From Gari tellinella (Eukaryota; Mollusca; Bivalvia; Cardiida; Psammobiidae), in NCBI GenBank assembly GCA_922989275.2, contig OV277866.1:52877246-52941245 (forward strand): a stretch of 64,000 bases of DNA. Reading direction: 5' to 3'. This document shows, in pieces, positions 2,642 to 63,576 of this stretch. Position numbers and translations under genes: made by a program. The number at the start of each line of letters is the position of its first letter. Positions within the stretch are counted from its first letter, which is position 1. The notes below the pieces were generated by a model. It searched no databases. It was not told the origin of the DNA and worked only from the letters and a program-made list of their open reading frames with translations.

Positions 2642-2852
2642 TTAACCCCTTCGCTGCCATGACGTCATCAACAAGTGTCGTCTGCGTTTTTTTCTAAAAT
2701 AAATTTTTTTAAGTATTTTGACTTACGAAATATGAAATTAAGTGTCAAACAGTTTTGATCCTGATCAGACGCCGCTTTACGCGGCGTCTGATCAGGATCC
2801 AAGCTGTTTGTTAAAAACCAGTATAGTCGGGGTAAGGCAGTGAAGGGGTTAA
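2642..2852. mobile_element. Fam-2 element, 211 bp, TTAA-bounded
   Basis: Begins TTAACCCCTTCGCTGCC and ends GGCAGTGAAGGGGTTAA, with a class I hairpin centred near 2784. TTAA duplication with CCC/GGG ends is the piggyBac signature. Confidence 0.8.
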
Positions 2853-3651: not shown

Positions 3652-3866
3652 TACAGTGGAGAAAACGTTATTCTTCCCCAATAAACGCGTTTACGAAAAA
3701 AAACTATTATTTCTATTGTAAACAGTTTTGAGCCAGATCAGACTTGTTTGCCACCAAGAAAACACATATTATCATAATTTACCAAAAGTTGTACTTTCTA
3801 CGTTTTAGTGATTTGCGTTTGCGTTTCGTTTGCGTTTAGACGGGAAATAATAACGTATTCTATACT
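3652..3866 (+). mobile_element. Fam-1 element with deleted hairpin
   Basis: The copy has both ends, but the central palindrome collapses from GATCAGAC directly to TTGTTTGCC, as if the hairpin was lost by slippage. Confidence 0.7.
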
Positions 3867-4139
3867 GATACAGAAAGGTCACAGAAAGATGAGCATCACG
3901 GGAGGTAGTATAAGGTTTGATGATGTAATAACACGTGCAATGAAGATTGCAATTTAATACTAATATAAATCAGAATTACATGAAATAAAATGATATCTTT
4001 GTTTGATTGGTTTGGCTCGTGTCTATAGGAGAAAATTGTAAATAATATAACTGTATACTAAATTCGATAATCCCTTCACTATCAAGAGGTTTGTCATCTG
4101 CTTAAAACAATTGTCGTCTGCCTTTATTTCGGAAATTCG

Positions 4140-4389
4140 TACAGTGGAGAATCTGTTATTCTTTCCCAATAAACGCGTTTACGCTAAAACTATTATTTGC
4201 AGTGCAAACAGTTTGGAGCCAGATCAGACGCCGGGTAACCCGGCGTCTGATCAGGCTCCAAACTGTTTGCCACCAAGATAAACAAGAATTATCAGAATTG
4301 TCCAAAAGTTGTTCTTTTCTACGTTTTAGTGCTTTGCGTTTGCGTACGTTTGCGTTTAAACGGGAAAGAATAACAGATTCTCCACTGTA
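4140..4389 (+). mobile_element. Fam-1 element, 250 bp, complete
   Basis: TA-flanked with perfect TACAGTGGAGAATCTGTTAT ends and a class I hairpin with GGGTAACCC at its tip (4203-4269). It serves as a reference copy, nearly identical to those at 48114 and 50579. Confidence 0.88.
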
Positions 4390-4404
4390 GGTGTTTGGCT
4401 GAGG

Positions 4405-6690: not shown

Positions 6691-6744
6691 TGAAAATCGG
6701 TTACAGCTAAGTAGTTTATCGGAATATTGGGGGGAGGGGGGGTT

Positions 6745-6868: not shown

Positions 6869-7167
6869 AATAAACTCAGACATAAAGTATTGCATGTATT
6901 TTACAGTCGATTGTTTACCGCATGTTCATTAAAACAAAACAAAAACACATGTTTCATGAAAGCAAACGTATAAATTGAATATTGTCATTATCAATTTACA
7001 GCTGCCTATCATTTGTAAACGAGATATTGGCAAATAGAGTAGATCCAGACGAGATGTCGTAATAAGCAGCATTTTACCAGGGTCTACACTGTGTGCTATT
7101 TCAAATGAAATGTTCTGTCATTTGAACAAGCACTGCACTGTTTTAAATAATCTTGCAAATGTATAAA

Positions 7168-7506
7168 GTGTTCCCTCTCTACAACCACTCCCAATGGGAA
7201 ACATATATTGTGTGTTGTTCGGGGGAGTTGTTGTAGGGAGGGAAAATGAATACCCTAAGAATGCTGAGCATGGTTTCTTTTAATTTGCAAACAGTTAGAC
7301 CTTGGTTCAAACTGTATGTCACTCGTCTGTATTTTCTTCTGATCAATTGTCTAATAGACAACTGAGAAAAAAGCAGCAAACGGCAATTTCAAGCAGACGA
7401 TAGCTGTGAAAGCGTGAGATATAATCGTCTTGTTTTGAAGAACATCGGCATGCATTTTTGTAAGGAAGGAATTGTTGTTCAGAGGGCCGTTGTAGAGAGG
7501 GAGCAT
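7168..7506. mobile_element. Fam-7 element
   Basis: Begins GTGTTCCCTCTCTACAACC and ends GTTGTAGAGAGGGAGCA. It has sub-terminal CCCAATGGGA and a partly deleted class I hairpin near 7287-7315. Confidence 0.65.
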
Positions 7507-7864
7507 TGTTTCTGTAATGAAATCGTCCGGCACACACATGGAGAGAGCTCGTTGCAATATCCAGGCATAAATGTTAAAGCACTTATACCCAGTGGAGTCT
7601 TCCATGTTTATATACTCAAACGCAATTAAAACGCACCAATCTTAAAATAGGAATATTTTTCCAACTAGGTTTAGTATTTAACCAAGCTTACAGGGGTGTA
7701 GCTAGCCCTGTGTGCATGTGGATTCACAGTTGACCTAGGGGCTTCGGGGGCATGCTCCACCGGAAAATGTTGAAAAAATGGCGCATTCTGGTGCATTCTA
7801 GGCTTTACGAGGGGCCTTATTTAGAACTGGAAAAAGAGATTTAGAAGTTCGAAATTCAACACTT

Positions 7865-8934: not shown

Positions 8935-8972
8935 TGGATCTTTTTTTTCTTTTTTTTTCTTTTTTTTTACCA
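8935..8972. repeat. Poly-T tract
   Basis: T-runs broken by single C residues; possibly the tail of a lost retroposon on the minus strand. Confidence 0.6.
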
Positions 8973-9365: not shown

Positions 9366-9371
9366 GACATC

Positions 9372-14836: not shown

Positions 14837-14899
14837 AAGCGACATGTCCATATGTACATCCACGAGCAAGCGACACAACAAGCAACAATTGAACTGATG

Positions 14900-15540: not shown

Positions 15541-16020
15541 TTTGTAATATTCCATCACACGGTGTCTGATATGGGTCTAGATAAAATGTGGAGTAAATGA
15601 GAGTAGGACATATTAATATTTTGCATCCAAACCAGAAATCGTCTATAGCGGTGTCTGGTCTGGATCCAAACATCAGCTTTTTGTAATATCCACCACATGG
15701 TGTCTGATCTGGGTTTAGATAGTATGTAGAGTAAATGAGAGTAGGACATATTAATATTTTGCATCCAAACCAGACATCGTCTAAAGCGGTGTCTGGTCTG
15801 GATCCTATCAGATTTTTGTAATAACCATCACATGGTGTCTGATCTGGGTTTAGATAGTATGTGGATTAAATGAGAGTATAGGACATATTAATAGACTGCA
15901 TCCAAACAAGAAAGCGTCTATAGCGGTGTCTGATCTGGATCCAAACATCAGAATGTTATAATAAACCATCACATGGTGTCTGATCTGAGTCTAGATAGTA
16001 TGTTGAGTAGTATGTTTGTA
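15541..16020. repeat. 135-138 bp tandem array, about 3.5 units
   Basis: TAAATGAGAGTAGGACATAT recurs at 15594, 15732 and (diverged) 15867. Each unit alternates GTCTGATCTGGGT and GTCTGGTCTGGATCCAAAC, fragments of the class I hairpin arm. Confidence 0.75.
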
Positions 16021-16248: not shown

Positions 16249-17005
16249 TTACAAAAACTAATGCTTTATCACATTATTTGGATATCTAACCCATGAAGTC
16301 AGTGGTAGTAAAGAGATCCAAAGACATAATTACAAGTATAAAATATCTTTTATTTTGGAAAATATGTATTACAATAGAGCTGTAAGTACATGTTATCTGT
16401 AAGTAAATGGGGTTTTCTTGTCATCTGTATCTTCCTACAATAGGAGTTGATACACTTCAAGATTCAGACCAAATAGCCATAATGTTTGTAGAAGTCCTAT
16501 TTAACCGAGTCACCACCATAAGCGCCCTGTGTGGACTTTAGAAACAATTTGGATACAGATCAGAAGCCGCGTATCTCGTTGTCTGATCAGGATCCAAACA
16601 ATTTGACAATCGCATTTATATTTCTTCAATTAGAATTTAAAAATTTGAAATTGGCATAAAGTTTCAAACGACAAATTTTTAACTCGCACTACTTTGACTG
16701 CAAAAGTGTTAATAGAGGCGATAACGTTTTACGATAAAAGGGTAACAAAGATTGTCATAAACGGAAAATGTTCTTCGGATGGTGTTAAAGTCACCACGAC
16801 AGATGTCGTGAATTTTAAATGTCCGTTTGTCAACCACTACTTCATTTGCATTTGCAAACAGGTTGGACCCAGATCAAACATATACGTACATGTATTTTGG
16901 CGTCTGGTCATATTCCACACTGTCTGTCACTCAGATACAAATAAATTGTCAGAATTTTCATATAAATATCTGTTAGTGCATAGTACTTTGTTTATTCTCG
17001 TCCAT

Positions 17006-17204
17006 GCAGTGGAGAAAACGTTATTCTTTCTCAACAAACGCGTTTACGCTGAAACTATCATTTCCAATGCAAACAGTTTGGAGCCAGATCAGACCCCAAA
17101 CTGTTTGCCACTCTGATAATAATGAAAAGTCAAAATTGTCAAAAACTTGTCATTTTCTAAATTTTAGTGTTTTTGCGTGAAAGAATAACGAGTTCTCCAT
17201 TGTA
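17006..17204 (+). mobile_element. Fam-1 element, hairpin arm deleted
   Basis: Has the left end CAGTGGAGAAAACG and right end GTTCTCCATTGTA. The palindrome jumps from GATCAGAC to CCCAAACTG. Confidence 0.65.
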
Positions 17205-19329: not shown

Positions 19330-22300
19330 CTTAAAAGAATAAAATAATGTATGAAACATTGTAAGATATTAAAAGTGTAACTAGCTTGTGGTGCCATACA
19401 CGTTGAGTCTACTTATATGCTGTATGTAAGTTATTTTTCTAGATTAAGTATAACCTCTCTTTCACGACCATTAAATTGTTTTAAATAGCAGATGTTTAAT
19501 ATAGATGACTGCTTAAAGCAATGTGAACGTAAAGCAGAAAGCTCCTAACTATTTTCGTTCACTTTGCTTCAAATTTTCACCTGTCTTTTATGCAGTAGAT
19601 TGGCTTTCTTTTTAGTGTTCATAATTAGTCTCTTGGAAATGACAGTTGACAATAAAACAAATTTTAAAAGAAATATATCCTTAGATCAATATATGTACGA
19701 CATATGTATACCTATATTGGAGAAGAAGTTAATGTTATTCTATCAAAATTTGCATTTTTGTTAAAATGATATCCCTTTAATCTAGTTTTGAGCAAGTTCA
19801 GAGGCCGGTTAAATCCTTTGAAAGCATTCATTCTCTCTAAGCTACACATGTACCAGCTGCTAAGATAAAAGAACAATTTTCACCGTGCTATTCATGACTG
19901 AGAGAAGCAATTTATTTCAGTAAAGGAATAAAGTTTAAGGAGTATGTATGATGTACATGTAAAGGATCATGCTACCAGTATTACATTATCAGTTTATCAG
20001 TTAGTAATTGTAGTACAATAAAACCTCTCTATCACGACCACTAAAAGGATAGTTAATTTATGCTGTAAAAGACAGGTGGTAGCTTAAAGCAAAGTGAAAG
20101 TAAAACTGAAAGCTCCTAAAGGAGCTTTCTGTTTTACTTTTACATTGCTGTAAGCAGTCTATTGTCCGAGAAACATGGTAATTGACATATCTTTAAGGTA
20201 GTAATAGAGAGGTTTTACTGTAAGAGCAGAAATTCACTTGTAACGGCGAGATTCTTACCAAGCACAGAGAAATACACGGCTTCACTGATAGCTCCATCTC
20301 CTGCCCGACTGTATCCAAGAACGCGTAGCACATACACAGTGTGTTTCTGCAGACCACCTATTACGTGTTCCTGTACTTTGTCAGTTAAATAGTCAGTTGC
20401 GGTTCTCACATCTTCCTGTATCTTCCATACGCGGATCTATGAAAAGAAGTCAAAGTGTGTTATTATTGGGCGTCGCGATATAACTGAGATACTGTTAAAA
20501 GCAATGTAAAATCATAAAAAAAAAACCAATTAAAAAACGTGCTATTTTGTAATGTACATGTCGTTTTCCGTGCTTTTTTGCAATGAACTATCTGTGTCAT
20601 ATTTTGTAATGTATATTTCGTGTGTTATTTTGTATTGTAGATTTCCGTGTGTTGTTGTGTACTGTAATTGTCCGTGTCATTTTACAATTTAATTTATCGT
20701 GTGCCAAAGTCTCTCACCACAAGGCTTGATTGTATAAAAATACTTACAATATATCCTATAATGGATTCCTCCAACGGCTTAATGCTCACGCCTCGCCATT
20801 TTACTAAGACACTATGTTCGTCGTAAGGATAGACTGCAATGTGTTTGGGGTATGCGCTGATAGCTAGAAAATAGAAAATAACTAATTCAAAACAATTTTA
20901 ATAGACTTATATTTGACACTTTGACATAATATGCATTAGCCGGAAACGGGAAATTTATTACGATACCTAGTATAAACCACAAGCATTTTGTTAAAAAAAC
21001 AAGAGATATGCATTGACACTTACTGAAAAGACAATTGATCCGATGTTAAAGTAAGATTCACACAAAGCACAGAACTCTTTTAAGTACAGTTTGCTTTAAT
21101 TTTACTCCGTGTTCATTTCCCACCTTTCTTTAAACATCAACATTGCGCCGACAAAAAACAGATACTATCTAAACTAGTACAACTGTATATTGGCCGATAA
21201 AATATGGGGAAAGCCAAGGAAAGTGTGATCAAACCAGGATATACATACAACATGTACATTATTTACAATATTTACATACAGGGTTAATAAAACCCAATAA
21301 CATTAGAATAGTAAAATACATTAACTTACGGAAATTGTAGGTTTCGGTCCATCTCCATTCCCCCTTTGGTCCGGCGCCTGCCGAGTTGAAGACTTGAACC
21401 CTGACATAGATATCTGTATTGGGCTCGAGTCCTATGCCGGTAGCCATGTCCTGCTGTCCGTAAACATTCTTGACAATTATATGTACCTTAGATGGGTCAG
21501 GCTCATCTTCAAAAGCCGAGTTCTCACCCTCGGGATCTTGGTAGTAGTAAACCTGTTCCAACAAAAGATATTGGTTAATTCTCTACTCCATAGTAACTAC
21601 AGTGGAGAAAACGTTATTCTTTCCCAATAAGCGCGTTTACGCTAAAACTATTATTTCCCGTGCAAACAGTTTGGACCCTGATCAGAAGTCGGGTAACCCG
21701 GCGTCTGATCAGACTCCAAACGGTTTGCCGCTCAGATAAAAAAGAAAAGTCAGAATTGTCAAAAGGTTGTCCTTTTCCACGTGTTAGTGTTTTGCGTTTG
21801 CGTTTCGTTTGCGTTTAAACGGGAAAGAATATCGTTTTCTCCACTGTACATGTAATGCAAATATGTAGCCATATAGTTGTTTAACTTTAACTCAATGGCA
21901 AGTAGTGCAGACATCTAGTCCAAAGGCTGCTTAACATAGTGACTAGTGCACATATTAGTATAAAGGCTAAGCATTACGCCATTCCAACTGGTAAAAATAT
22001 TAGTAAAAAATGGCTGATAAAACATTACTCTATAGCAACGAGTGTAAATACATGTATTAGCGATCTGACTGGTTACCTATTACTCTATAACAACTAGTGT
22101 AAATATTAGCGATCTGACTGGTCAACTATTACTCTATAGCAACTAGTGTAAATATAAGCGATCTGACTGGTTAACTATTACTCTATGGCAACTAGTGTAA
22201 ATATTAGCGATCTGACTGGTTAACTACTACTCTATAGCAACTACTGTAAATATTAGAGATCTGACTGGTTAACTACTACTCGATAGCAACTACTGTAAAT

Positions 22301-25300: not shown

Positions 25301-28300
25301 AACGGTTTATTGCAAACCATTTGGTACCTGATCAGACGCCGCCTGACGCGGCGTCTGATCAGAAACCAAACTGTTTGTCACTAATTCCCAAGTTTCTGAA
25401 ATTAGAATGCTTAAATTTTGAATTTGAGAAATAAAAACAGACGACAATTTTAACAAGGGCACCGCATGCGAGTGCCAAAGTTCATCTGATTTTGACGATC
25501 AGTGAAAAAATACAGCAAAACTAGTCAAATGTCAAGTTCTGTTGATTACATATTTTGGTAGATCCTTGTCTGGATTATACTTGTCAAGATGACCATGCAC
25601 ACCAAGCACGAAGGGTATGGATGACAACTTGAAGAAGTTCTGTCCAATGTAAAGATTTTGGACATCAAAACAATAATTAAGTCACAGGACAGGGGCACCG
25701 CATGCGGGTGCCAAAGCTCGTTTGTTTTTGATGATCAGTGAACAATACAGTAAAACGAAGTCACAGGTCAAGGTCAGTTGGTTATACAGTTTGGTAGATC
25801 CTTATCCGGAGTGAACTTGTCATATCAAAACTGAAGGTTGTAGATGAACAACCAAAGACGTTATGGCCAACTGGAACATCATGTGAAAGTACAGGAAAAT
25901 TTAGTCAAAGGCAAATGTCGATTGGTAAAATGATTTGATTTACATGTATCTGGAAAGGACATGTCAAGATTAACAGTCATACTGAAACGAATATTGTAGA
26001 TACATTTGAAGGAAGTTTATGGCCTATGTTAGGAATTTGGACGACAACGTTGACACCGACAATGAATCGGACGTCGGGTGACGACAATAGCTCCTGTTTT
26101 TATTCCAAAACGACTAGCTTAAAATGATCACGTCATGACAGTGTACGTGTTAAATGTTTATTAGGAGTTGAGTTTTGTGACCAACTTGAGCAGACGCATG
26201 TGTACTGGAAAACCATGGCATGCTTTCTATATCAAAGATATGAAAAACAAAAAAGGAAACCTACAATACAGCCGAAACTCGACACCTAGAACTCGCGTTA
26301 ATTCGAAGTTATCCATATTTCAAAGTTATAAAGTGGCTTGCCCACGTTCTAACTTTGAAATACGAGTATGTTTGACTAAACGAGATAGAAGTTTTCGAAA
26401 TCAACCCTACGATATACAGGAAAGGTAGACTTATGATTTTCTATACTTACTTCCCTCGGCTGAGAAGATTTGAACTACAGAGGAGTTTTTCAGCCCATCC
26501 CCTAAGTCGTTGAAGGCACCGACCTTGACCAAGTAGCGCATGTAATAATTATCTGCACCTATCGTCTCGACAAACGTTCCCTCGTTCAAAGCCAAGGCAT
26601 CATTGGCCAAGCTCTGAAAATATAGAGAAAATATAACCAGGGCTCCAGATATGGGTGGTACTTCAAAAACAAAATCTTTATTTCTGATTTAAACCCTATG
26701 GTGTAACTACTCATTAGAATCGTCTCAAAGAGACGTTTCTAATGAGAAGTAACACCATAGGATTCGATGTTGTATGAGTGAGAAAATGTTCGATTTGTTC
26801 ATATTAACTCTCCCCCCCCCTTTGTTTGGAGCCATGTAGATTAGCAGTCAAACTTCCGTAAACACATTCACTGCCAAGACGTCATCTGCTTTATTGATTG
26901 AAATAATTTAGTAATGAGTATCAACCAGGTTGGATGCTGATCATACATGTACCACACGAAATATTTTCTATATTCTAGCAGATGGTTGCTTAAAGGAGGC
27001 TAAAAGTAAAGCAGAATGCGCCTTAATGTGCATTCTGCTTTACGTTGAACCTACATTAAGTTGAAAACCCTGTCTACAAAACTCGAAACAGGCTTCAGAT
27101 AGATAAAAGCAGAAGACAATTGCTTAAAACTCAACTACGTCATGACAGTGAAGGGGTTAACTCTTTGCATGCTAGCGGCGGATACAGTGGATAATCTGTT
27201 ATTCTTTCCCGTTTAAACGCAAACGTACGCAAACGCAAAACACTAAAACGTAGAAAAGAACAACTTTTTGACAATTCTGATAATTCATATTTATCTTGGT
27301 GGCAAACAGTTTGGAGCCTGATCAGACGCCGGGTTACCCGGCGTCTGATCTGGCTCCAAACTGTTAGCACTGTAAATAATAGTTTTAGCGTAAACGCGTT
27401 TATTGGGAAAGAATAACAGATTCTCCACTGTATATCCACCACAGTGATTGCCTTTGCAAACAGTTTGGATTAAGATGAGACGCCGCGAAACGCGGTGTCT
27501 CATCAGGATCCAAACCTTTTGCCATTCTGACCCTGAATTGAAAAAAAAATGTAAATGCTAATTTAAGAACAGTAGCAGACCACAAATGTTGAAGATGACC
27601 AAAATGTACACAGCATACAAAGAGTTAATTCGGTATCTTAACTGTACCTTCTTCCAGTCCTTGGCGTCGTCTTCTCTCTTCCAATATACCCAGTAGCCTA
27701 TACCTGGGCCGCACTGCTCCGATATGTCAAACGGCTGTGGAATAGAACAATCATGTACATGGAATAAGGGACCCAGATAAGATGCAGCGAACTAAGTATG
27801 TCAACGTGTTATCCTTTATTCTAAACTAAGAGACGATTCTAATGAGAAGTGACAATATAGGTTTAATGCAGAAATAAAACTTGTAATTGTTTAAATACAG
27901 CCGTTGTCTGGAGCCCTGGCTGATAATAATTATAATAATAATAACAACAATAATAATTATGATAAAGATAATAATAATAATAATTATTATTATAATATTA
28001 ATAATAATAATAATAATAAAGACTTTATTTAAAGAAGGTAACACAATTAGTACAGACACGCAACTAATCTCCCGTCACATAAAACAGGACCTTATGAAAC
28101 AAAAAAGAGCAAAATGTATGAATGTCTATTCAAATGAACTATTCAATTTTACCCATAATCCAAATAAAAAACTTGAGTTAGCGGTCTTGTATCAACGATA
28201 TCAAAAGCATATTTTGAGCAAATAGTTACAGTTGAGATTACATTAGGTTTTACACTCAAACGTACCATAGTGTAATAAAATGCAGAAAATTACAGATTTT

Positions 28301-40300: not shown

Positions 40301-43300
40301 TAAGGCGCATTCTGCTTTACTTTCAGCCTGCTTTAAGCATGTTTCTAGTTTAGTTTTGTTGACATGTGACTACTTAAAGCAGGTTGTACGTAAAGCAAAA
40401 TGCGCCTTAAGGCGCATTCTGCTTAACTTTCAGCCTGCTTTAAGCTACCATGTACTGGAAAAAATCCGAAGATTTAGAAAAAATCCGGAGAAATGGAAGC
40501 CCTGTTTTTTCCGTCAAAAGAATCGCCTAATTAATGATAAAACAAATCTCAATATCAAGCCATTCGGAAGATAATATACCGTGAAACAGTCTCCATTATC
40601 TGACAAGAACATACTTTTGTAAGAGTACTAAACAAACAAAATTGGCGGGGCCATTTTGACATACGGTATTGTTTCGGTGCAGCAGATGACGAAAAGTGCA
40701 CATCGATAGAATATTGTGACCTTCGGAATAAAAAGTGATTTCTTGGTACAAAAGTTTTCGGAGTGAAAACGGACATAAGGAAATTGGTTCAAATTGTCTT
40801 ATGCGCTATATCAAATAAAGTAATTAACCCATTACCCCATAGCCTGTTTATAGTTTTGAAAATAGGTGACTACTTAAAGCAGGTTGAAAGTAAAGCAGAA
40901 TGCGCCATATGGCGCATTCTGCTTTACTTTCAGCCTGCTTTAAGCTTTTACCAGTTAGAATAAGGAAAGTATTAAATATGACACATATTTATTACGGTTT
41001 ATATTGGAACTATTTTCTTCAGCGGATGAATAAAATGCAGGTGCTAAAAGTCGCTTCTATAAGGGAAAGGGTTAATATACCTGCTTGCATTGCATTTTGA
41101 CAAAGATAACAGGTAATGTTTACTTTGTTGATTGTAAAAAGTAATGATATACTTGAGCTCTTAAGAAATAATATGGTGTTGTCGAAGTAAAATGCACCTC
41201 ACCGAATCAGGTCTACCGACGATAAAGTGATACAGTGAAGAAGAGGGTTTAACCCATTACCCCCTTAGCCTGTTTCTAGTTTTAAAGAAAGACGATTACT
41301 TAGAGCATGTTGAAAGAACAGCAGAATGTGCCTAAAGGCACACTCTGCTTTTCTTTCAGCCTGCTTTAAGCTATTACATGTATCTGATAGGATATAGAAA
41401 CTATTTCTTATGATACATATTCATCACCGTATAAAAGCGAACATTTTTTTCTTTAGTGGAGGAATAAATCATAGTCGTAAATAGGCGTATTTATGGGGGA
41501 ATGAGTTAAAGGACTTTGAAATTACAGATAATTGCAATTGCGTTTTGCCTGAATAAGAGTTGTAGACAATTTCAAGCCTGAGCAAAGTTATTCGGCACCT
41601 GACCTACATGTACATGTAGTTCCAAACTGTTTGTAATGGACATTTTACCACAAAGGTTGAAATGCTTGTATTGGGGGAAGAATGACGTATTTTCCACCGA
41701 ACCAATGCAATATCATATTAACCCTTTCACTGCCAACTTTTCGTGATATTTTACCCCTCGCCGTTTCATTGTCGGCTGCTTCAATTTTCTCGGACACAGA
41801 ACGAGTGTCAAACAGTTAGGATTTTGATCAGACGCCGCGTTACGCGGCGTCTGATCAGGATCCAAACTGTTTGCAAACGCGCTTTAAACGTCTTTGAAAG
41901 TGAAAAGGGTAATTTATGTCGTAATAAAAGTTCATACCTTCCATGTACACGGATAATGTTTTGGTCGCTTGTGCCCCGGAACCACGGACACACCTACATA
42001 CGTAATTCCCTTCGGCTTCCAGCGGGGCGTTTTTGATGGTTAAGACCCTGTTTCGGGCAGAGAGAACAGTGCCTTTCACAAAAGGACGTCCATCTTCCCG
42101 ATACCAGAAGTAGGTGAGTGGTGGTCTGAAATATTTCGAACAAAACCATGGTCACGTGACAAATTCCACCAGGCATGCGCATCAATTCAATTCAAATTCA
42201 ATTCAATTCAAATTTTATTGGCATTAAACATATACAATGTTCATACATGTAGCCATATAACATTATGTACATGACTAACAATAGATAACTATATACAGTA
42301 GTACTAGACCAGGAAAACAGTTTCATAAGCAGGAGAAAAGTATGAAAAAAATGTCAGATGTCAAATATTTAGCATTCTTGATTATCCACCTTATGTAAAT
42401 GACTATTGTATGCAATGTACAGTGGCGAATACGTTTTCCCCAAGCAGTGTGAACCAATGGTCCAATATTATTAAGCGTTTGAGGTGATTCTGTGCATTTG
42501 CACTGCAACACAAAATTTGACAATACACAAAATATTTTTGATCTTTTCAGTGTGGAAGCATTTCAAATCCTATAGCCTAAGAAGACGTAGTTATGACGAC
42601 GAGTGATTTAACCCTTTACCCAATAACCTTTATAATATAATAATAACGACATGTGATCACTTAAAGAAGGTTGGAAGTAAAGCAGAATGTGCCTTAAGGC
42701 ACATTCTGCTTTCCTTTCAGCCTGTTAAACTACCATCTGCTAGGCTATATCAAAATATTTGGTATGGTAATTGTTCGTTAGGATATAAACTGTGACTTTT
42801 GAGTTTTTTGTTCTAAATTTATAACAATTATTCTCGCATATTTAGATTTTCAAATTATCTACGCTGAATGACATTTTAAACTCCCGTGTCTAATATTTTA
42901 CTAAATTATAATCTTTTGGGTGGTGATAATGATGTATATTTATTTACATAATTATACAGGCAGTCAATATCTTAAAATTGTTTTATTGTCATTGCCTTTG
43001 CTAGTTACCATGGCAATAGTTTAGATAGTCAGATACACAATTTAGACCACATTTTGTCCGTTGCTACATGTATGCAAGACGGAAACTTGTCATTAATTTG
43101 TTCATAAAATGTGCTGGCGAGGTCATTAATATGGCACCAGACTTGTACTCACGTTCCATAAGCGACGCATTCCAGTCTGATTGTATGACCTTTCAATGCC
43201 GGGGTAGGAAAGGCGTGTGTGTTGAGAATGGGTCCATAGTCGTTGTCCGAGGCTAAAAGAAACAAAATCAAGCAGGAATAAAAAGGGCAAGAACCAATAG

Positions 43301-46300
43301 ATAAGCAAAAGGATATTTGGGGATCGTAAACGAAGGTGGCTGCATACATGTATGGATGATAAAGTAATACCGAATGTCAATATGGGAGCTTTCTGAATAT
43401 GAACATTCTAATTTTAGCAGTCACTTGTCTGTTTAAGAGATACTGTATGCATGCTATTAGCGACTGCTTAATTAATAAAGAATTGACTATAAAGGGACAT
43501 AATACAACTGATAACGAGTTCCAGACGACTCTCACTCTTAACATCGATTGCTCCCCTTCCATTTACTTCTGAAATTTGTACTAACTGTAGCCTATAATAA
43601 CATTTCGTGAAACGCATGTAAACCCATTATGTGCCCATGATCCATTGTATGGGTCAAAGGCAATCAATATATACTCTGAGTAGTAATCTACAATGTTGGT
43701 ATGAATTCCAATTTAGAATAGCCACCCCTTAGATAACAAAAAGGACGCGGCGTCTGATCAGGACCCAAACTTCTTGACACTCATTTCCATATTTCTTAGG
43801 TAAAAAACGCAAAGGCATCTAAATGAGTGGAGGAAACGGCACATTTTTGACAATTCTGACAATGTATTGTAATCTAAGTGGCAAATAGTTTGGTTCCTGG
43901 TCAGACAAAGGGTAAACGGCGTCTGGTCAAGCTCCAAACTGTTTGAATCGGAATTAATGATTTTTCAGTAAACGCGTTTATTGGGAAAAATAAGGGTTTT
44001 TCCACTACATGTACTAACCGCTTTCTGAGGTCAGCAACAGGAGCAGCCCCTTATTTGAGCGAATAGGTGGATACGCCTTGGACATCTTGAAGCCGTCTGT
44101 CGGGACCAGGGTGACAAGACAGAAGTATTTCTTGTTGGCGTCCGTCGTCTGTACCTCAGATATATAGAGAGCACCGGAGTACGACACGAACATGTTGGGA
44201 TTTTCGGGCCAGATGAAAATGTTGGTGACTCGGTTTTTCGCCCACTGGTAGGTCACGCCTGAAACATAATTGATTATATACATACAATTGAGATGACGTA
44301 AATTTGTTCACGTTTAACCCATTTGTGCCCATTGGATTATTCCATGTTTATATATTGGATTTGTCCATTTTTTATTAAAGGGATACCTGGTCAAAATTTT
44401 GATTTTCATTTTGTTTTATATTGAAATTCCTATCAGCTAACAGTGACGACTCTGATCAGACGCCGCATTATGCGGCGTCTGATCAGAGTTTACACTGTTT
44501 GCATATGTCCAATATATGGGATCGTGGGCACAAACGGGTTAAACCTTTAAGAAACGCGCTACAATACAGTTTACAGTTTAGCTCTTTCACTGCCAATGGC
44601 GCCAAAAGGCGACTTTGCAAACAGTTTGGATCCTGATAAGATAACTCGTATTCACTTTCGACGCAACTACATCTCTTCCGACAACACCCCCTTCACAGTC
44701 ATAACGTCATCAATTTTAGACAGTTGTCGTCTGCTGTTATCTCCTTACTGAATTCAGTATCAAACAGTTTGAATCCTGATCAGATGCCGCGTTATACGGC
44801 ATCTGATCAGGATCCAAACTGTTTGGAAATACCTAATGCACTCGGGGCAGCGAAGACAGTGATGGGGTTAAAACGTGGTTGTATGAGTACGTTGGACTTC
44901 GAAAATTAGAGTTATGGAAATTCAATTGAAGAAATAACGTACATGTATTAATTAAAACATAATTGCGTTAGAGTAATACATTGGAGAATCTGTTATTCTT
45001 TCCCAATAAACGTGTTTACGCTAAAACTATTATTTGCAGTGCAAACAGTTTGGAGCCAGATCAGACGCCGGGTAATCCGGCGTCTGATCAGGCTTCAAAC
45101 TGTTTGCCACCAAGATAAACAAGAATTATCAGAATTGTCCAAAAGTTGTACTTTTCTACGTTTTAGTGTTTTGCGTTTGCGTACGTTTGCGTTTAAACGG
45201 GACAGAATAACAGATTCTCCACTGTACGTATTAATTAAAACATAATTGCGTTAGAGTAATACTAACTTGTACGGTCAATTCGAATTAACTTATTTAAAGA
45301 TGTTTTAGGACCTAATAATCTGTTCGGAGTGCACAGACAGTTTCAATGAGTTTAGCTTTGAGAGTTAACCTATTTGTGCCCACGATCCCACGTATGGGAC
45401 ATAATCAAACAGTGTAGACTCTGATTAGAGTCTTCACTGTTAGCTGATAGGAGCTTCAATGCAAAACAAAACGAAAGTTTTATACCAGACACCCTTTAGA
45501 GCAAAAATTGACTAATCCAATATATTTGCATGGAAGAATCCACTGAGCACAAATAGTTTAACGAAGAGCCGTTCCAGAGTATTTGGCAGTTCTTACCCGG
45601 TGAGTAGGAAGGCGTACCACAGTCCATCTTCCCTCCTTTAAATGCTGTAGCTCTGACAGGTTGAGGATCGATGTTCTGGAAATGGCCCAGATCTAAACGT
45701 GACAAAAGAGATAGGGCTTATTACATGTACATGTATAACTACTGTGGCAATATATGCTCCCGCTTAAGCCTTTCCTCCAAAGAAGCGCATTTTAACGCGT
45801 TCATTAAATTCTCCCACTTAAGAAAATAATTCCAATTTGTATAGTCATTAACATGTACAATAATAATATATTTTCAATCCTTGCTGATGATAGCTTAAAG
45901 CAGGCTGAAAGTAAAGCAGAATGCGCCTTTAGGCGCATTCTGCTTTACATTCAACAGGCTTTAAGTGGTCATGTCACCTGTTCAAAACAGACAAAGGTCA
46001 TGGGTTAAAAGGTTAACCCGCTTTATCGTCATTTGCAACGTAAGCTGACATTGAAAGCAGTTCAATAATAGAAATAACAATAAAGACTTTTTTTCAACGG
46101 GAGCGTTCATTTGATAAAACCAATCTTCCACGAGGTCCTCAATATAATAACATAATGTATATACAAGTAGATCTACATAAAACCATAAATACATCTAGTG
46201 TACGTGTACAATAAAAATCGAGCAAAATGCTTGAAGTGTTATTTACTGAATGAATGGAAGACTTTGGATGTTTAGATCCAGATAAGACACCGCGTAAAGC

Positions 46301-49300
46301 GGTGGTATCTGATCAGAATCCAAACTGTTGGCGCTCGTCTCAATAGGTCTTCAGTCAGGACTTCAATGACTAAAACTGCAGATAAGAAATTTTAGCAGAC
46401 GATATGTTGTCTGCGAGACGGGTTCGATTAGACAGTCTTATTTGATGGTGAAATGATAAGTTTGCATAACAGTTGAAGTAACTATTTTAGTACAAACGCG
46501 TATAATGAGAGACTATCGCCTTCTTCACTGTATATCGCATCAAACCGTTGACCTGCGTATCATCTGGATCTACACTCTTTGCGTAAAGCTTTAGTTAACC
46601 CTTTCACTCTCAATGACGCTTAAATGCGCATTTGCAAACAGTTTGTATCCTGATCAGACGCCGCGTTACACGGCGTCTGATCAGGATCCAAACTTTTTGA
46701 CGCTGGTTTTGAAATTAATTCAGTCATACTGCCTTATATCTATTTTGAAACGGCATGCAGACAACAAAATTGAAGCAGACGACAATGAAACGTTGAAGGG
46801 GTAAAACTCTCACGAAAAATTTGGCAGTGAAAGTGTTAACCACGAATTATATACAAGTTGGTCATATGAATATGATGTATAAATGATGGAATATGTACCG
46901 AGATACTTAATGTATAAGTTACGAATAAACTATGTCTATGTATAATTCCGTGCTTTTAAAATGTCTGTTCAAATTTGGTCAGCACAGCATTGAACGTAAA
47001 AAGGAGGTCTATGGAAAATGTTTTGGTGGCCTCTGACCTCTAGGCTATATTTCGGCCTATTTGCCAATGAGAGTGCTGCAGTTCAATCAAGCAGTCACTG
47101 ACCAAGATTTCAGATCATTACTGATTGGTTAGATCGTTTCAACCAGGAGGTTAAAAGAGAAAACATTACCGTCTCCGACGGGAAAAAAGGTCTGTACTTA
47201 CTTCCAACGATGACTTTAGCTGAGTCACTGAGGACCACACCGTGCTTGTTCTCGGCTCGACAGTGGTACGAACCCACGTCCAACTCCTCTGGGCCGTCAA
47301 TGGTGATGACGCCACTGGATAAAGTGTAGCGCTTGGATGAACTTATCATCATTGAGCTCACGTGCTGTAAGCCCATGTACCAGCTGTACATAGGGTACGG
47401 GTTGCCGGACGCAAAACAATCCAACTCAATATTCTTGGCTCCTTCAAGGATCTGAAGAATAAAAAGGACTTAACCCTTTCTTCCCTGAAACCTCAAAATG
47501 GACAATTCTAGTTTTCAATTTAGTCTAGTCCATTTTTTACTTTTTTAAGATTTATTTTTACAATTTATGTTCAAATGGCAAACAATGTAGACCTTGATCA
47601 GAGGGCTCCTTAAGGAGCCCTCTGATCAAGATCTACACTGTTTGCATAGGACAAGAGTACTACTTACGGGTATGTTGTTTGCAAATTACGCACATATGCC
47701 TGGCTATAGGATTCAAAGAGTTAACGTGTAAAACTCTTTGTTACGTATGAATCTACATTTGAAATACAAGCAACATTCCACCAATCTCGTTAAACAATCC
47801 GTAAGCATAACAGTACATGCATTCGTTGAAAAATTCGCCTATTCAATTCAAATTATCGCACGTATGTTTATATGTCGCATCATTCTACGTCCTCCACCAC
47901 TATGCCAAATCAATTTGACTTAATGGGAAAACTATAAGGTGGAACATAACAGCAAACTCTACATAATACAACTTTCACGGGGCATAACTCATAGATATTC
48001 ATCATTCTTGATGGAGAGAAGTAATAGTAAGAAGAAGAATACTGGACAAGTTTTTCAAAGTTAATGTACAGAGCTCCCTCTCTACAACAACACCCAATGG
48101 GAGACAAACAGCGTACAGTGGAGAATCTGTTATTCTTTCCCAATAAACGCGTTTACGCTAAAACTATTATTTGCAGCGCAAACAGTTTGGAGCCAGATCA
48201 GACGCCGGGTAACCCGGCGTCTGATCAGGCTCCAAACTGTTTGCCACCAAATATAAACAAGAATTATCAGAATTGTCCAAAAGTTGTTCTTTTCTACGTT
48301 TTAGTGCTTTGCGTTTGCGTACGTTTGCGTTTAAACGGGAAAGAATAACAGATTCTCCACTGTACAAATACACCCAGTGGGAGACAAACAGCGTATTCGT
48401 TGTTCGGAGGGAGTCGTGATAGGGACAGAAATTGGTTTACATTTGCAAACAGCTTGAATCAAGATCAGACGCCGCCTTCCGCCTTGGATCTGGATTCAAG
48501 CTGTTTGTCACTGGTAATAAAAGTTTGTTCAGTCAAATTGTCCAATATGTATGTTTGAGAAAGGCAGCAGACGACAACTTTAAGCAGACGATATTGCAGC
48601 AGTAAAAGCGTTAGACATAATTGTCGTGTTTATGGAACTGCGGCAAGGGTCGTTGTCAGGAGGGAGTCTTTGTTTAGAGGGCCGTTGTAGGGAGGGGGCG
48701 ATGCCAGTTGTTATTCTGGATGTACATGTACCTACCACAATGCTCTGTGGCTGTATTTCTACTATTGGACCTCTCTCAATCTTGTCAGGTTCCGTAGTTC
48801 CTAGACCATAGTCTGTAACAAACAAAATAATATGTTAAAACTTAAAACCATAAGAGACTGGTTAAAGATATTTCCTCAGTCCATTGATGGAGTCCCCACA
48901 TTCTTCTCGATAGGTGTAAATGTAACTGTCAAAGCATGCAGCACAAGCTGCCGGAGGGTATACCAATCTCAGTTTACCTTGTGAGGCCCAGATTATACTC
49001 ATGCTCTAGTGCTTTTCAATGGTTGTTTCTTACCAAACTATCAAATATAAAGGTCGGGTCTCACATGAGACGCTTCAATGGTTCTTTGCTACCGACGTGT
49101 CCACAAGACCCATATTTTTTGTACGGAAATTGTCTGGCAAGGCGTTATGATCGAAACGTCGTCAGGAGATGTCTTTAAACCCCTATTTTCCGACCATTGA
49201 CTACATGACCCAGTAGTAATGGTAAGCAATACGTTATTCTTTTCCGTTTAAACGCAAACGAAACACAAACGCAATTGCAATAAAATGGAGAAAACGACAA

Positions 49301-52300
49301 CATTTCGAAAATATTATTTTAATCTGAGTGGCAAATAGTAGTTTGGAGCCTGATCAGACACCGGATAACCCGGTGTCTGATCTGGCTCCAAACTGTTTGC
49401 ATCGGGAAAAATAGTTAAGCGTTAGCGCGTTTATTGGGAAAAGAATAACGTCTTCTCCACTGTAAGAACAGGGGCCCGTTTTACTAAACTACTTACGCAA
49501 ATGTTTTGCGTAAGTCAAAATTTTAAATTTATATTTATATTCTTTATTATCACTTGCTACAAACAGCAAATATCCAGATCAGAGGACGCGCTTTTAGCGT
49601 GTCCTCTGATCTGACTATTTGCTGTTTGCAAACGTTTATGATCGAAAATAAGAGTAAAACGATTTTGACTTACGCAAAAATTTTGCGTAAGTTGTTTAGT
49701 AAAACGGGCCCTAGGTGAGTAAAACAGTTATTTGCAAACAGTTTGGATTCTGATCAGACCCCGCGTAAGCGACGTCTGTCCAGGATCGAAACTGTTATAC
49801 ACTCATTTCATTATTACTTAATTCAAAATATCTTAAGTTTGAGAAATATAAAAACACGACAATAATTGTATAAAATTGATGACGTCATGTCAGTCAATGG
49901 CTGAATGGTTTACTCACTGAAGCTTCTTGATAAAACGTTGATCCTGCCTGTGTCTTTAACTGGAATCTCACAGATTGCGTAAGCAGGGATACTTGAAGTT
50001 ACGTTCGTCCATCCGTAACCAATAAAAGTCGTTGCTGTAAATGAAAAAATAAAAACTTTAGTATTAACATACAATTAAACGATAAGTTCAATAAACAGTA
50101 ATAATGCATTAAACATAAACATTTGATAGACTACGACTTGACAATTAATTGCTCGGCATTTCATCATGGTCCAAACTGGTTGCAGAATTATTCACAAACT
50201 CATATAAGGTTAAAAGACGAATTTCCTTCGACATATGGCTTAACCATATTCCCAAAATATACGCATCATCAAGCATCTACCTATTATTTTTAAATGTCTA
50301 TGCTAGAGGTCAATACGAAAGAAACATTGTATGTATGGAAAGACGTCACATATATTCTCTCTCGCGTTAACTCCATAAATACACTTTTTAGGCATTTAGG
50401 TTATTCCTCCACTGAAGAAAACAATTCAAATATATGCAGTTATAATTATCCTAATACTCTTTAATTTCTCAGTTTGCATAAATTTACAAAAAAAGAACAT
50501 AAGGATTTTCCCTCACACACATTCAACTTATTTGGAAAGTGATCAAACACCGGTGATCCGTCGTCTGATCTGGCTGTATACAGTGGAGAATGTGTTATTC
50601 TTTCCCAATAAACGCGTTTACGCTAAAACTATTATTTGCAGTGCAAACAGTTCGGAGCCAGATCAGACGCCGGGTAACCCGGCGTTTGATCAGGCTCCAA
50701 ACTGTTTGCCACCAAGATAAACAAGAATTATCAGAATTGTCCAACAGTTGTTCTTTTCTACGTTTTAGTGCTTTGCGTTTGCGTACGTTTGCGTTTAAAC
50801 GGGAAAGAATAACAGATTCTCCACTGTAGGTGTGCAATGGAAATAATAGTTTAAGCATTCATCTCATTCATGATCAAACCTATCGTGAGTATTGTACCCC
50901 TTCCCCACCATATTGGCGTCTGCTTTAGTATTATTGTCTGCAAGACATGTTTCAAAGTTAGATTTTAGGTTTTAAAACTTAATAAATATCGATAAGAGTG
51001 TTAAACAGTTTGTGTCCTGATCAGACACCGCGTTACGCGGCGTCTGATCAGGACACAAACTGTTTGCAAACGCGCTTTATGACGTCATTGAAAGTGAAAG
51101 GGTTAAGCAGTCACTTAACTTTAAAATTGAAAGTTATGAGGCAAAGATTTTGATAAAAAAAAAACTTTGCCAGTATGTATATACCTCCAAATACGTAAAC
51201 TATTTTCATTCTAACAGATGTGTCGACGGGTCCTGTTCGAGGTTCTTCGATCCAGAAATGTGGGGTATCTTGGAAGGTGTTCTGGGACTCCCAGTAGAGC
51301 TTGCCAATAGTGTAGTCGCCGGATGTATACCACATGGTTTCCCTGCAAGATATGTGACAACCCTCAGCTACAATCTCGTCTCTATAACTTTTACTACTCT
51401 ACGTCAAAATTTGAATTCCAAAAAGTTAATTTAAAATAATAACAGAGAGTCCAAATGTTGGGATCCCGATGAGACTTCGAGTTATAATGATCCATGATCC
51501 AAAATATGTAATGACACGTATTGCAGCTGGTTGTTATTGCTGCTATTGTTGTTGCTAAGAACGATTTACGTCCTCTTGAAGCTACAGCGCTCCCTCTCTA
51601 CAACGACATTCAATGGGAGACACACATTGTGTGCGTTGTTCAGAGGGAGTCGTTATAGGGAGGGAAATTAGCTTACATTTGCAAACAGCTTGAATCCAGA
51701 TCAGACGCCGTGTAACGCGGCGTCTGATCTGGATTCAAGCTGTTTGTCACTCATCATTATATTTATTCCATCAAAATGTGACTTTGGGAAAAAACAGCAG
51801 ACGACAATTTGAAGCAGACAATATTTCAACAGTAAAAGTGTTAGACATAATTGTCTTGTTTAGGGAACTGCAGCAAATGTCGTTGTAAGGAGGGAGTCGT
51901 TGTTGGGAGGGCCGTTGTAGAGATGGAGCACGTATATATTTAATGTATCCTCCCATGCTTTTTGGCCCTAGTCAAGATCGGCTCCTTTTCGTTGGGACGT
52001 TTGCAAATGGTAAACTAACGTTATGCGGCGTTTGGTCAGGAGCTAAACTGTTTGTTCTCGGAATAAGAACGTGAAGAGGTTAACATATGTTACTACTTCG
52101 CCAACTTAAAGCTGGAACTTGAAATGAACTCAACTTATGTGCTTACTGGAAGATTTCATTTAAGATATACATGTACAAAGGTGGTCTATGACACTCCAGT
52201 AAGTGTTAATACAGCAGATTATTTCATATAGAATAGCAAACAATGCACGCCCTAACGAGACGCAGCAATTTGTGGTGTCTGATCGGGGTCTACACTGTTT

Positions 52301-55300: not shown

Positions 55301-58300
55301 CATAATATATAGGTTTTACTGTATCTTAAATGGGGTTTGGATGATAGATATATTTGACCGAGTTTTGTACAGAATATTATAATATTTGGCATGATAGAAA
55401 ATGCAACACGCTATTGTATCATGAGCTGCGTGACTTCTATCACTATCAACTACATGGATATGTTTTGTTAAGGGGCAGTTTGACCCATACACCATTATCA
55501 AATGTATCGGTCGGGAGCTCCTGTCGGAGGGATAGGGTTCCCCACATGTATGTGTGTCATTTACAAATTGTCTAGTGTAAGGTTTACTTGACGTATGCAA
55601 ACAGCGTATGCAGAGGACTCCCAAAGAAGAGAAGTTAAAAAACAAACCGCATTTGTTTCAAAGCATTTATATAAGCAGAATAGTAATAGTATGTGCTTTT
55701 TCAAGGGATATTTTACCGTTTGTGGCAATGGTAATTTTTTCCCTATAGATAAATTGACATTTGTGTTTAGCTGCTGAAATCATGTTATATATATAAGTAG
55801 CATTATGACACTAGAATGTTCGGTACAGTGGAGAAGACGTTTTCATTTCCCAATAAACGCGTTAACTCTTAAGCTATTTTCCCGATGCAAACAGTTATGA
55901 GCCAGATCAGACGCCGGGTTACCCGGCATCTGATCAGGCTCAAAACGGTTGCCACTCATTCTAAAATGAGGAGTCAAAGATTTCTAAAAGTTGTCATTTT
56001 TACCGTTTTATTCATTGCGTTTGCGTTCCGTTTGCGTTGAAATGAGAAATAATAACGTATTCTCCTCTGTTGTACATGTACTGCATGACGTGTGCTATAG
56101 TACGGAAAACGTTCTGCTTTCCCATTTAAATGAAAACTCAACGTAAACTCAATGCATTAAAATGAAGAAATGACGGGTTCTTGAAATCGTAGGTGATTCA
56201 TTATTTTGACAGAAGAAATACATGTATTAATATTATCAGTGTCAAAACGTTTGCGGTATGATGTGTCTGGACTGAATTCAGGCTGTTTCAAAGTCGACTT
56301 TAGTCGTTTGTGGTGGTTAATGGGTATATTCCTTTTGTACTCTTCATCGCTTCCCACTGAAATACGTTAAATCGATCCCGGATATGTGAATAGTTTGGGT
56401 CAAGCGGTGTCCTCATTTTGACTTACGTCCGCCCATGCCGGGTCACGGGTTCGATTCCCACCAGAGCTCAATATTTTTTTTTTATTGAAATGCATTATTT
56501 TAAACAGAATTTCTTATACTAAACTAATTCTTACCCGTTTATATAAGCGTTTGTCACATATTTACAAATTACTATTTTTAATGCTATATCTGGTTGCGAG
56601 TCTCTTTAAGCACAAGAGTATGTAAAAAAAACAAGACTACAGGTAATGTAAAAGCTATCGGTGAAGCTGCCAATGTGTATAACTAGAACCCGATCAGAAA
56701 TAACACTACCCCTGGGCTTTATAAATAGTACATGTAAAGCTGTAATAAACAATGTACGCCCACCATTGTCAATAGAGCCAGTGTGTACACAGTGGCAGTA
56801 ATTATACACTAAACTACACATCCGCCAGCAATATCATAGCCAACGACTTAACATAATCGTTAAACGAAACGTGAAACCATTTTACAGCAGTCATCTTTGC
56901 GATTCACGTATTTCGTCTCTTGTTTTTTCGACTTGCAGATTTGGTATTTTATGTCCGTTTGTTTTACATGTTCAGTCTCTTTACCCGTTCACTGTCTTAC
57001 CCGAATACAATAGTTACTTGCAAACAGTATGTACCCTGATCAGACGCCGCGTAACGCGGCGTCTGATCAGGGCACAAACTGTTTGACACTCATTTCAATA
57101 TTTCTTAAGTAAAACTATTTTTGACGGCCAAAATACTTAATATCTAAATCTGTGAGATAAAAGCATATTACACTTGTTTAAAACTGATGACGTCGTGTCG
57201 GTGAAGGGGTTAACTTCGCGACTAAACATTCAATATACAGACGTTTCTTTTCTTTCTGTTTCCTCTTTTTGAAATTGTGTCCCATATGTGTAATTTGTTA
57301 TATTTTAACCAAAATAGAACATTCCATATACACACAGGTGATATCTGTGTACTCGTATAATACGCTTGAGTGAATCCTGTAAACCATTCACAAGGCGGGT
57401 AGTTTCCCTTGGTATAGTATCCCCGTACATGTTTACATGTCACCATCACAAGTTGATCGAACCTTGACTGCTTTTCGTAAACAGTCTACATTCTGGTCAG
57501 ATGCCTTATAGCTCTTCATTTGATTCGGAATTGATTTGTTGGACTCCTGTTATCAAGTCTCTTCAATAAGAAAATAACTAAACCCCTTAAGTTGGCACAT
57601 GTTTACGAAAACATGGACCTGGTTGAATCAAATATAAAAAATTTCATGGAAACGGTAGAATTGAATACACCAGTAAAATTGCATGGAAATAGCTTAATTA
57701 AATGCATTAACTTTCATGGAAACGGTAGAATCAAATACACAAACTTTAGAGGAAATGGTTTAAATACCCCGGTACATAAACTTTTAATAAGACTCCATGA
57801 ATTAATTCTCCATATATAATAATGTTTCATCACTTGTGTATTAAGTCCGTATGTTTTAAATATCGAATACGCAACGCAAATCAGAGCAGAATCTGATTTG
57901 CTGATGTAACGCAAATTCAAAAACGAAAAACAATATTTAGAGTCGAAATATTAATCTGGGCGCTTAGCATAATATAATAACACCTATAATAATAATATTA
58001 CATTAATTATTAATGAATAATCGTTATAACCTCAAGATAAGGAGAACGTTCAAGTACATGTACAGTTTTTTGCAAATGCATGCGCTTACAACCCTGCTTT
58101 CTTAAACTAAAATGAATATGATAAATACAGTTTTCTATTTTCCGATACAAATATAATAAGAGGCTGTACCAAAACCTGCAGAGACGTCAATGTTTACTGT
58201 GTAAAAATAATATTAGTTATTATTTGCCGTTATCATTATTCAAACACTGCCACCTCATTTGATCTTGGAATTCTCGTAGTATTATTATGTATTTCAATTT

Positions 58301-63576: not shown

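Follow-up and report, generated by a model that had tools for sequence, protein, structure and literature searches.

A long central palindrome shared by MITEs with different ends in the bivalve Gari tellinella

Results

Two abundant palindromes and the elements that carry them

The analysed stretch of Gari tellinella DNA (64 kb, 36% GC; hereafter the window) contains many copies of two palindromes, which lie inside short elements with ends of several kinds (Table 1). Class I is a 67-nt palindrome. A profile built from 19 window copies matched 81 merged places in the 64-kb window at E<=1, 58 of them at E<1e-4 and 29 at full length (67 nt) with E<=1e-9. Its motif GCAAACAGTTTGGATCC occurs 68 times with at most three mismatches, against 0.18 expected from shuffles. 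Class II is a 72-nt palindrome with the core CTTAAAGCAGGYTGAAAGTAAAGCAGAATGCGCC and its inverse, found at 30 merged places in the window at E<=1. Folded as single-stranded DNA, three class I copies reached -32 to -40 kcal/mol (z -12 to -14). An interpretation as a known structured RNA was rejected, as there were no Rfam matches at the gathering score; a tRNA scan also gave none. Exact searches with the class I core patterns in viral_contigs and genome_contigs, and with the class II pattern in viral_contigs, returned no matches.

Beyond the window, two samples were drawn from the genome assembly (1,597,604,326 bases, 80 contigs). The first, unbiased one consists of 20 stretches of 10 kb on contigs C1-C7, evenly placed irrespective of content; the second comprises 29 loci (L002-L030) retrieved with a B element as query, L001 being excluded for its overlap with the window. 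In the unbiased 200 kb, hairpins scoring at least 25 bits numbered 90 for class I, spread over 17 of the 20 stretches, and 112 for class II, spread over 18. Since their density is uneven (0-18 per 10-kb stretch), scaling to 1.6 Gb gives only a rough figure, of the order of 7e5 class I and 9e5 class II copies. Window, loci and unbiased stretches together provided, at the same 25-bit threshold, a pooled set of 218 class I and 155 class II hairpins. Loci L002-L030 were included in flank clustering, consensus edges, class II families, the 96-pair arm test, the hairpin tree, covariation, hairpin-found counts of shared and private variants and the A-interval counts; they were omitted from arm-found divergence and arm-found shared/private counts.

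Several local arrangements accompany the dispersed copies. Three class I-like hairpins stand in tandem at 15612-15953 with a spacing of 137-138 bp, and their flanks fit none of the arm consensuses tested. In one unbiased stretch (L042, C4:70000001-70010000), 18 hairpins of class II, each of at least 25 bits, lie within 10 kb, and two nine-copy pairs of class II flank clusters (1/3 and 3/4) resemble a satellite-like local array of the hairpin unit. A C-type hairpin at 36353-36449 carries a second palindrome inserted at its apex (CACGAATGAA..TTCATTCGTG). Near-perfect palindromes outside both classes lie at 35268-35355, 61988-62080 and 26695-26761, with arms of 42, 46 and 32 nt. The window also contains a tandem repeat (22024-23075), whose 49-bp unit is present about 21 times and shows a higher-order period of 147 bp, and a separate 33-bp array (24578-24842).

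Table 1. Elements placed in the window; a slash marks an element edge or a junction
Element	Position	Strand	Hairpin	Remarks
A	4140..4389	+	class I, 4204-4270	TA/CAGTGGAGAA ends
A, older copy	21598..21848	+	21662-21728	right arm starts CGCTCAG
A	44977..45226	+	45041-45107	perfect 34-bp direct repeat flanks, ending at TA
A	3652..3867	+	most lost	junction GATCAGAC/TTGTTTGC
A	38771..38987	+	most lost	junction GATCAGAC/CTGTTTGC
A	17005..17204	+	shortened to 40 nt	fits slippage between two GATCAG repeats plus later substitutions
B	2642..2852	-	class I, 2745-2811	TTAA/CCCCTTCACTGCC ends
B	56979..57213	+	57020-57086	
D	41718..41909	-	41808-41874	B-like tips; short other arm AAACGCGCTTTA
D	50866..51106 (50866 approximate)	-	51001-51067	long side matches B right arm
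D	46595..46839	+	46634-46700	
C	28781..29008	+	28817-28883	TTAA/CCCATTTGTGCCCA-type ends
C	44312..44544	-	44436-44502	
J	47470..47724 (right limit approximate)	+	variant class I, 47578-47645	apex GAGGGCTCCTTAAGGAGCCCTC
L	27157..27630 (limits approximate, by eye)	+	27456-27522	nested A at 27183-27432
F composite	48067..48705 (right limit approximate)	+	48445-48508	nested A at 48114-48364 with 33-bp flanking duplication
F composite	51583..51931	+	class I, 51681-51747	TA/CAGCGCTCCCTC ends; B-type right arm, decayed B tip
F composite	61336..61714	-	61530-61601	
F composite	7165..7510	+	damaged, near 7287-7321 (by eye)	
G	40822..41075	+	class II, 40873-40944	TTAA/CCCATTACCCCATAGCC ends
H	33668..33872 (limits approximate)	+	class II, 33741-33811	TA/CAGTAAAACCTCTCTATTACGACC-type ends
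K composite	38121..38371 (limits approximate)	+	class II, 38181-38252	CAGGGCTGCC ends; G left arm, most of G tip
Chimera	26857..27160 (left limit approximate)	+	half class I, 26922-26946; class II, 26989-27060	

In order to define families, the left and right flanks of the 218 class I hairpins were clustered independently. The cluster pairs were A-left with A-right (51 hairpins) and those of F (10), J (9) and L (4), next to a C-right cluster (5); one right-arm cluster was combined with two left arms, as B-right/B-left in 19 and B-right/D-short in 7 of the 218 hairpins. For 57 of the 218, neither flank fell in a cluster of at least four, and the remainder had one flank that did. By their consensus edges, the class I hairpin occurs in seven families, two flanked by TA with the tips TA/CAGTGGAGAA (A) and TA/CAGYGCTCCCTCTCTACAACGAC (F), and five flanked by TTAA, namely B (TTAA/CCCCTTCACTGCC), C (TTAA/CCCATTTGTGCCCA), D (TTAA/CCCTTTCACT), J (TTAA/CTCTTTCCTCCC) and L (TTAA/CTCTTTGCATGCT). 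The class II families are G (TTAA, 61 copies with both arms), H (TA, 11) and K (CAGGGCTGCC ends, 7), besides the local array. A preliminary description of this DNA had counted about 35 class I palindromes by eye and placed them amid MITEs with both TA and TTAA ends; the palindromes are real, if understated in number, and both kinds of end are confirmed. Our guess is that its families Fam-1, Fam-2/4 and Fam-9 correspond to A, to B/D and to C or J.

Consensus edges, read from the inserted copies rather than by comparison with empty sites, show TTAA on both sides of B, C, D, J, L and G, which by the target-site rule we take to be piggyBac-type. Likewise, TA stands at both consensus edges of A, F and H, presumably of Tc1/mariner/pogo type by target site and CAGT-like tips. 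We take the K tip CAGGGCTGCC as suggestive of hAT-type elements; an 8-bp target duplication was not seen in the flanks of the window K copies, read by eye. Three of the 33 A copies with both ends recognised (44977-45226 and 48114-48364 in the window, and one in L031 near 3124) stand between direct duplications of 34, 33 and about 44 bp, lengths that far exceed a TA-type target duplication.

The elements are short with inverted-repeat ends (A about 250, B about 210-235, C about 230 and F about 350 bp, within the limit of roughly 600 bp for MITEs), dispersed in high number over the seven sampled contigs, and non-coding as judged on the three window reading frames of at least 120 aa. One of these frames encodes a LINE-type reverse transcriptase and lies outside the elements; the other two have no Pfam match, although one (16694-17116) partly overlaps an A element. 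No transposase was found among the three. The LINE-type frame at 11365-14793 (-) is unbroken over 1142 aa, with endonuclease and reverse transcriptase domains. In contrast to foldback elements, the palindrome is not terminal but central, between short unrelated ends. We file the elements as MITEs rather than as a new kind; their new feature is that, in one genome, unlike ends enclose a conserved palindrome at the centre.

Relationship between hairpin and end type

Next, we compared the hairpins with the ends that surround them. Within the window, the nearest-neighbour hairpin belonged to the same end family in 17 of 23 cases (shuffled mean 6.2, maximum 16), and the A hairpins formed one group. 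A tree of 67 columns was then based on 100 of the 105 labelled hairpins (five were too incomplete) from seven end families. All end labels together required 8 changes on this tree, the minimum being 6 and the shuffled mean 47.3. A single change was required for each of A, F, J, L and C (49, 10, 9, 4 and 3 hairpins). Only B (19) and D (6) interleave, with five and four changes, and single-clade trees for B or D were not rejected (p 0.35 and 0.27). The branches of A (79/29) and C (99/76) did not receive strong support.

The preliminary description had suggested that the hairpin is itself a unit of movement or conversion, and had proposed mixing of end types within hairpin clades as the sign of such exchange. 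With A, F, J, L and C each forming one group (A and C weakly supported), the tree goes against this suggestion, and speaks for a few old transfers rather than free exchange between TA- and TTAA-ended elements, as far as a tree of so few columns can tell. It likewise makes improbable the more general explanation that the hairpin is a mobile or converting unit which inserts into, or overwrites, the middles of unrelated MITEs; in addition, no target duplication was seen by eye at the hairpin edges. This explanation would accommodate the class II families G and H, which have only a slightly longer palindrome in common.

Halves of elements shared across families

In the window, the right arms next to the hairpin are alike in A (older copies), B and F, and the left arms are not. 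Each flank of the 58 strong window hairpins was scored against the arm consensuses, with the 99% background level as cut-off. By our own count, 36 of the 58 have a match to a right arm of B, F or A on one side, and no hairpin has such matches on both sides; opposite the match lies an A-left, B-left or D-short arm or other sequence. The matches in at least one C and one J copy look accidental.

As the idea arose from the window, the comparison was repeated on copies outside it only (15 for A(old)). Right arms matched between A(old) and B (p 0.0005/0.0010), B and F (0.0020/0.0015) and B and D (0.0010/0.0005); A-F (0.096/0.056) and A-D (0.096/0.076) both missed 0.05, and A-J and B-J scored 0. For left arms, the values were 0.64/0.58 (A-B), 0.47/0.41 (A-F) and 0.10/0.09 (B-F). 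The B and D left arms did match (p 0.0010/0.0035), because the tips of the two families are alike. Over all 96 arm pairs, the top three were the right arms of B-D (p 0.0005), B-A(old) (0.0010) and B-F (0.0025), followed, uncorrected, by J left-L right (0.0030), L right-C right (0.0105), B left-D left (0.0115), D left-C left (0.0165) and D right-J left (0.0355). Since pairs involving C and J also reach p 0.003-0.04, the weaker matches may reflect composition, and with such close runners-up a p near 0.01 is not evidence on its own.

For A, the outcome depends on the type of test. Profiles and free local alignment, applied first to compare A flanks with B and F, gave no excess overall and one marginal copy (A39509, p 0.011), and were discarded; a right-arm excess did emerge when consensus sequences were compared from a fixed anchor at the hairpin edge. 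Free local alignment of the A and B right-arm consensuses was not significant (p 0.20). The A-B match is short, 33 of the 51 A copies being without the CACT start. Between B and L, the right arms have 40 nt in common, including AGCAGACGACAATTGTT (local p 0.004, three L copies).

Thus, B, D and F share a right arm besides the hairpin, and sharing in A and L is probable. The preliminary description was correct that MITEs with different ends share the hairpin; it needs correction in that B, D, F and probably A and L have more in common than the hairpin. A hairpin that travelled by itself would not bring an arm along in B, D and F, although C and J, which share the hairpin without a clear common arm, would fit its transfer alone.

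The clearest sharing is found in composite elements. The F-B right-arm match extends over about 100 nt and reaches through the B tip (CAGTGAAGGGGTTA vs CAGTAAAAGCGTTA), with a local score of 62 against a background mean of 22 (p 0.002); outside the window, the F consensus reads CAGTGAAAGCGTTA. On the other side of the hairpin, F shows no significant match to B (p 0.09-0.10). F consists of the right half of a B-type MITE, from hairpin to tip, inside TA-ended F termini. In K, the class II hairpin is accompanied by the G left arm, which extends to about GGGGTAAAGG and lacks the final bases of the G tip. A G arm was not detected on the other side of K, where about 16 nt past the hairpin (CTACCATGTATTAG vs CTANCATCTGCTAG) resemble the G right arm by eye; the junction is therefore placed within about 20 nt of the hairpin, near rather than at its base. 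K is thus half of a G MITE (TTAA), from hairpin to most of the tip, inside other ends.

The chimera at 26857-27160 has a B-type tip on each side. Its B right arm gives a local score of 73 (shuffled maximum 28) and its half class I hairpin one of 30 vs 22; the class II hairpin that follows has both G arms cut short. Such a fusion, in which a class II core follows one half of a class I hairpin, could also be produced by a hairpin moving as its own unit. Ordinary nesting is present as well, with A inside F and A inside L (Table 1). In a class I flank cluster of ten flanks (cluster 8, e.g. 27433-27456), an A tip stands in the consensus at a distance of about 30 nt from the hairpin, which points either to insertion of A close to hairpins or to amplification of a composite.

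These comparisons also bear on descent. All class I families could go back to a single ancestral MITE whose ends drifted or were replaced stepwise, leaving the hairpin merely as its best-preserved part, and the tip, right arm and hairpin common to B and D, the partial match of L to the distal B right arm and the TTAA flanks in five of seven families would agree with this. Nevertheless, the A and F tips are unlike those of the TTAA families in sequence and target site, and F and K hold most of a TTAA-element tip inside their own tips, which indicates end addition instead of drift, so that we consider a single ancestor quite improbable. The statement in the preliminary description that common descent of whole elements is unlikely needs qualification insofar as families share a half, F and K each containing half of a TTAA MITE with most of its tip.

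Variation among copies

In order to compare the hairpin with its surroundings, copies were also collected by one arm alone (window and unbiased stretches) and the hairpin was compared with the other arm, because copies found by their hairpin are biased. In the two comparisons per family, divergence of hairpin vs arm was 0.069 vs 0.107 (36/36 alignable) and 0.057 vs 0.138 (38/38) in A, and 0.103 vs 0.171 (66/67) and 0.085 vs 0.212 (56/57) in G. For B, the values were 0.159 vs 0.190 (8/9, with an interval that includes 0) and 0.082 vs 0.136 (2/2), a set too small to tell. In the arm-found F copies, the hairpin was not less divergent (0.148 vs 0.143, 8/8; 0.141 vs 0.127, 7/7).

We then separated variants private to one copy from those shared by at least three. 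In hairpin-found sets, private variants per 1000 letters were about as frequent in hairpin as in arms (A 19.8 vs 17.1; G 12.6 vs 9.6), and shared ones were much rarer in the hairpin (A 22.5 vs 96.3; G 56.5 vs 231.9); omitting CpG sites altered this little. Arm-found sets, from which columns with at least 30% gaps were dropped, gave hairpin/inner-arm ratios for shared variants of 0.35 (0.14-0.88) and 0.22 (0.12-0.35) in A and 0.44 and 0.26 in G, and for private variants of 1.39 and 0.95 in A and 2.37 and 1.42 in G. Consequently, inserted A and G copies decay evenly, and the lineages that founded subfamilies kept the hairpin: that of A was more constrained in source lineages than arms and ends, and that of G more than arms. 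The tip values of G were not used in this test because the alignment there is unreliable, and one private ratio of the test had a zero denominator; misaligned columns certainly inflated shared variants at the G tips and could have done so in other arm columns. In B (19 hairpin-found copies), the shared ratio was 0.17 (0.03-0.41) and the private ratio 0.62 (0.42-0.86), the latter fitting ascertainment or conversion and not selection among sources.

On these counts, selection among sources would be the simplest reading for A and G; shared variants would also become fewer if source copies converted one another. For the conversion put forward in the preliminary description, inserted copies of A and G show no sign, their private mutations being as dense or denser in the hairpin, which equally disfavours a hairpin that overwrites others as a unit; the hairpin-found B ratio of 0.62 would agree with such a unit.

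It is also conceivable that the conservation is only apparent and results from a mutational cold spot, from correction of one stem arm by the other through template switching, or from finding copies by their hairpin. The B private ratio and the absence of a difference in F are in line with this, and template switching is reported to homogenise the arms of inverted repeats (PMC8794818, PMC8604942). The stems do change in a correlated way. Of the 33 stem pairs compared over 28 distinct hairpins of class I, 14 were changed on both sides (shuffled mean 8.5), with 44 two-sided-change cells vs 16.6; in class II, the numbers were 9 of 34 (5.1) and 18 vs 6.8, in shuffles that ignore the relatedness of copies. 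Compensated cells exceeded independence in A (6 vs 1.5), B (5 vs 0.6), D (5 vs 1.1), J (3 vs 0.7), G (19 vs 4.1) and H (11 vs 3.9), and were few in K (2 vs 0.7) and F (2 vs 1.4). Yet copying from arm to arm preserves symmetry and not sequence, and private mutations in A and G are not rarer in the hairpin, either in the sets found by one arm or in hairpin-found sets outside CpG. An artefact of this kind therefore seems improbable to us.

The hairpin has been shortened or largely lost in some A copies. Among 52 copies with both arms, the interval between them is at least 59 nt in 46 and at most 40 nt in six, of which three have the 40-nt form expected from slippage between GATCAG repeats, two a common join GATCAGAC/YTGTTTGC, and one lacks the left side. 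The three shortened window copies are scattered over an arm-based A tree in which most forks are open; going by these scattered positions, loss probably recurred, each time after GATCAG.

Discussion

The variation among copies suggests that the hairpin is not freely swapped, that it is passed on rarely and often with neighbouring DNA, and that it is kept as its carriers multiply better. The explanation we prefer, at a probability of roughly one half, is that these hairpin-centred MITEs arose by a few old transfers of the hairpin, together with all or part of an arm, from a B-like lineage, that the new combinations were amplified, and that the hairpin was kept in their sources. The B private ratio and the position of the K junction lower our confidence in it.

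According to this few-transfers explanation, the class I palindrome with all or part of the right arm would have left a TTAA-type, B-like lineage on few occasions, the other junction of each transferred piece lying close to the hairpin; the direction is the one we infer. D would have retained the hairpin and the right arm next to a different left arm, L a distal piece of the right arm and A the stretch adjacent to the hairpin. The transfers may have proceeded by insertion of one element into another and later loss of an arm, or by template switching or breakage at the palindrome. Each combination would then have been amplified as its own family, and hairpin clades would for this reason follow the ends. 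In A and G, the hairpin would have stayed constant in the lineages yielding new copies and not in the copies once inserted, and its constancy in source lineages would imply a contribution in cis to becoming a successful source, with selection among sources as the presumed cause of the contrast between shared and private variants. The hairpin would then presumably be read by one factor that is not tied to a transposase superfamily. The suggestion in the preliminary description that the hairpin is kept as an aid to mobilisation gains indirect support from the A and G contrast. A further-reaching version, in which the hairpins of both classes, unrelated to each other and each joined to more than one end type, are portable cis-acting amplification modules read by a host or trans factor other than the transposase, behind TA or TTAA ends alike, is conceivable, though we regard it as unlikely.

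Chimeric elements occur in Galileo and other Drosophila foldback transposons. These elements have a foldback structure, as here, and structural dynamism is described for them (PMC3573991); their foldback lies in long terminal repeats, whereas the present hairpin is central between unrelated short ends. MER6, a Tc1/Mariner-derived MITE with a SINE V domain, also has a conserved internal module found across element classes (PMC6887750), although there it is a SINE domain in one MITE, and here a long palindrome behind several kinds of DNA-MITE ends in one genome. Closer in taxonomy, the bivalve pearl-family and related MITEs and satellite junctions are modular as well (PMC5139131): DTC84 has a conserved palindrome near a repeat junction, and 13 of 16 breakpoints of phBglII400 fall at one palindrome. 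The phBglII400 palindromes measure 12 and 10 bp in that account, against 67 and 72 nt here. Both ends of piggyBac contain a 19-bp palindromic internal sequence bound by the cysteine-rich domains of the transposase (PMC11707139). These palindromes are short and lie in the ends, unlike the central hairpin described here; by analogy, they might offer a lead to its role in the TTAA families, and would leave the same hairpin in TA-ended elements unexplained. Abundant, apparently selfish palindromic repeats are also described from Volvox (PMC2670323), in organelle DNA rather than inside MITEs with their own ends. Among the open-licence papers listed in searches on chimeric, bivalve or palindromic MITEs, the present arrangement was described in no title or opening of an abstract, which is weak evidence of absence, and searches for the hairpin sequence strings in the literature returned no transposon paper, judged by title.

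Which internal features allow a MITE lineage to amplify is an old question, still open because the interior is usually treated as filler. Here, the same hairpin recurs behind ends suggestive of different transposases, and in A and G, the two largest families, this part of the interior is more constrained in source lineages than the arms. How a module can reach new ends is seen in the F and K composites, and comparing shared with private variants allows the question of amplification to be tested directly on the copies of a single genome. If the hairpin is a portable module, it would raise the copy number of whatever ends it joins.
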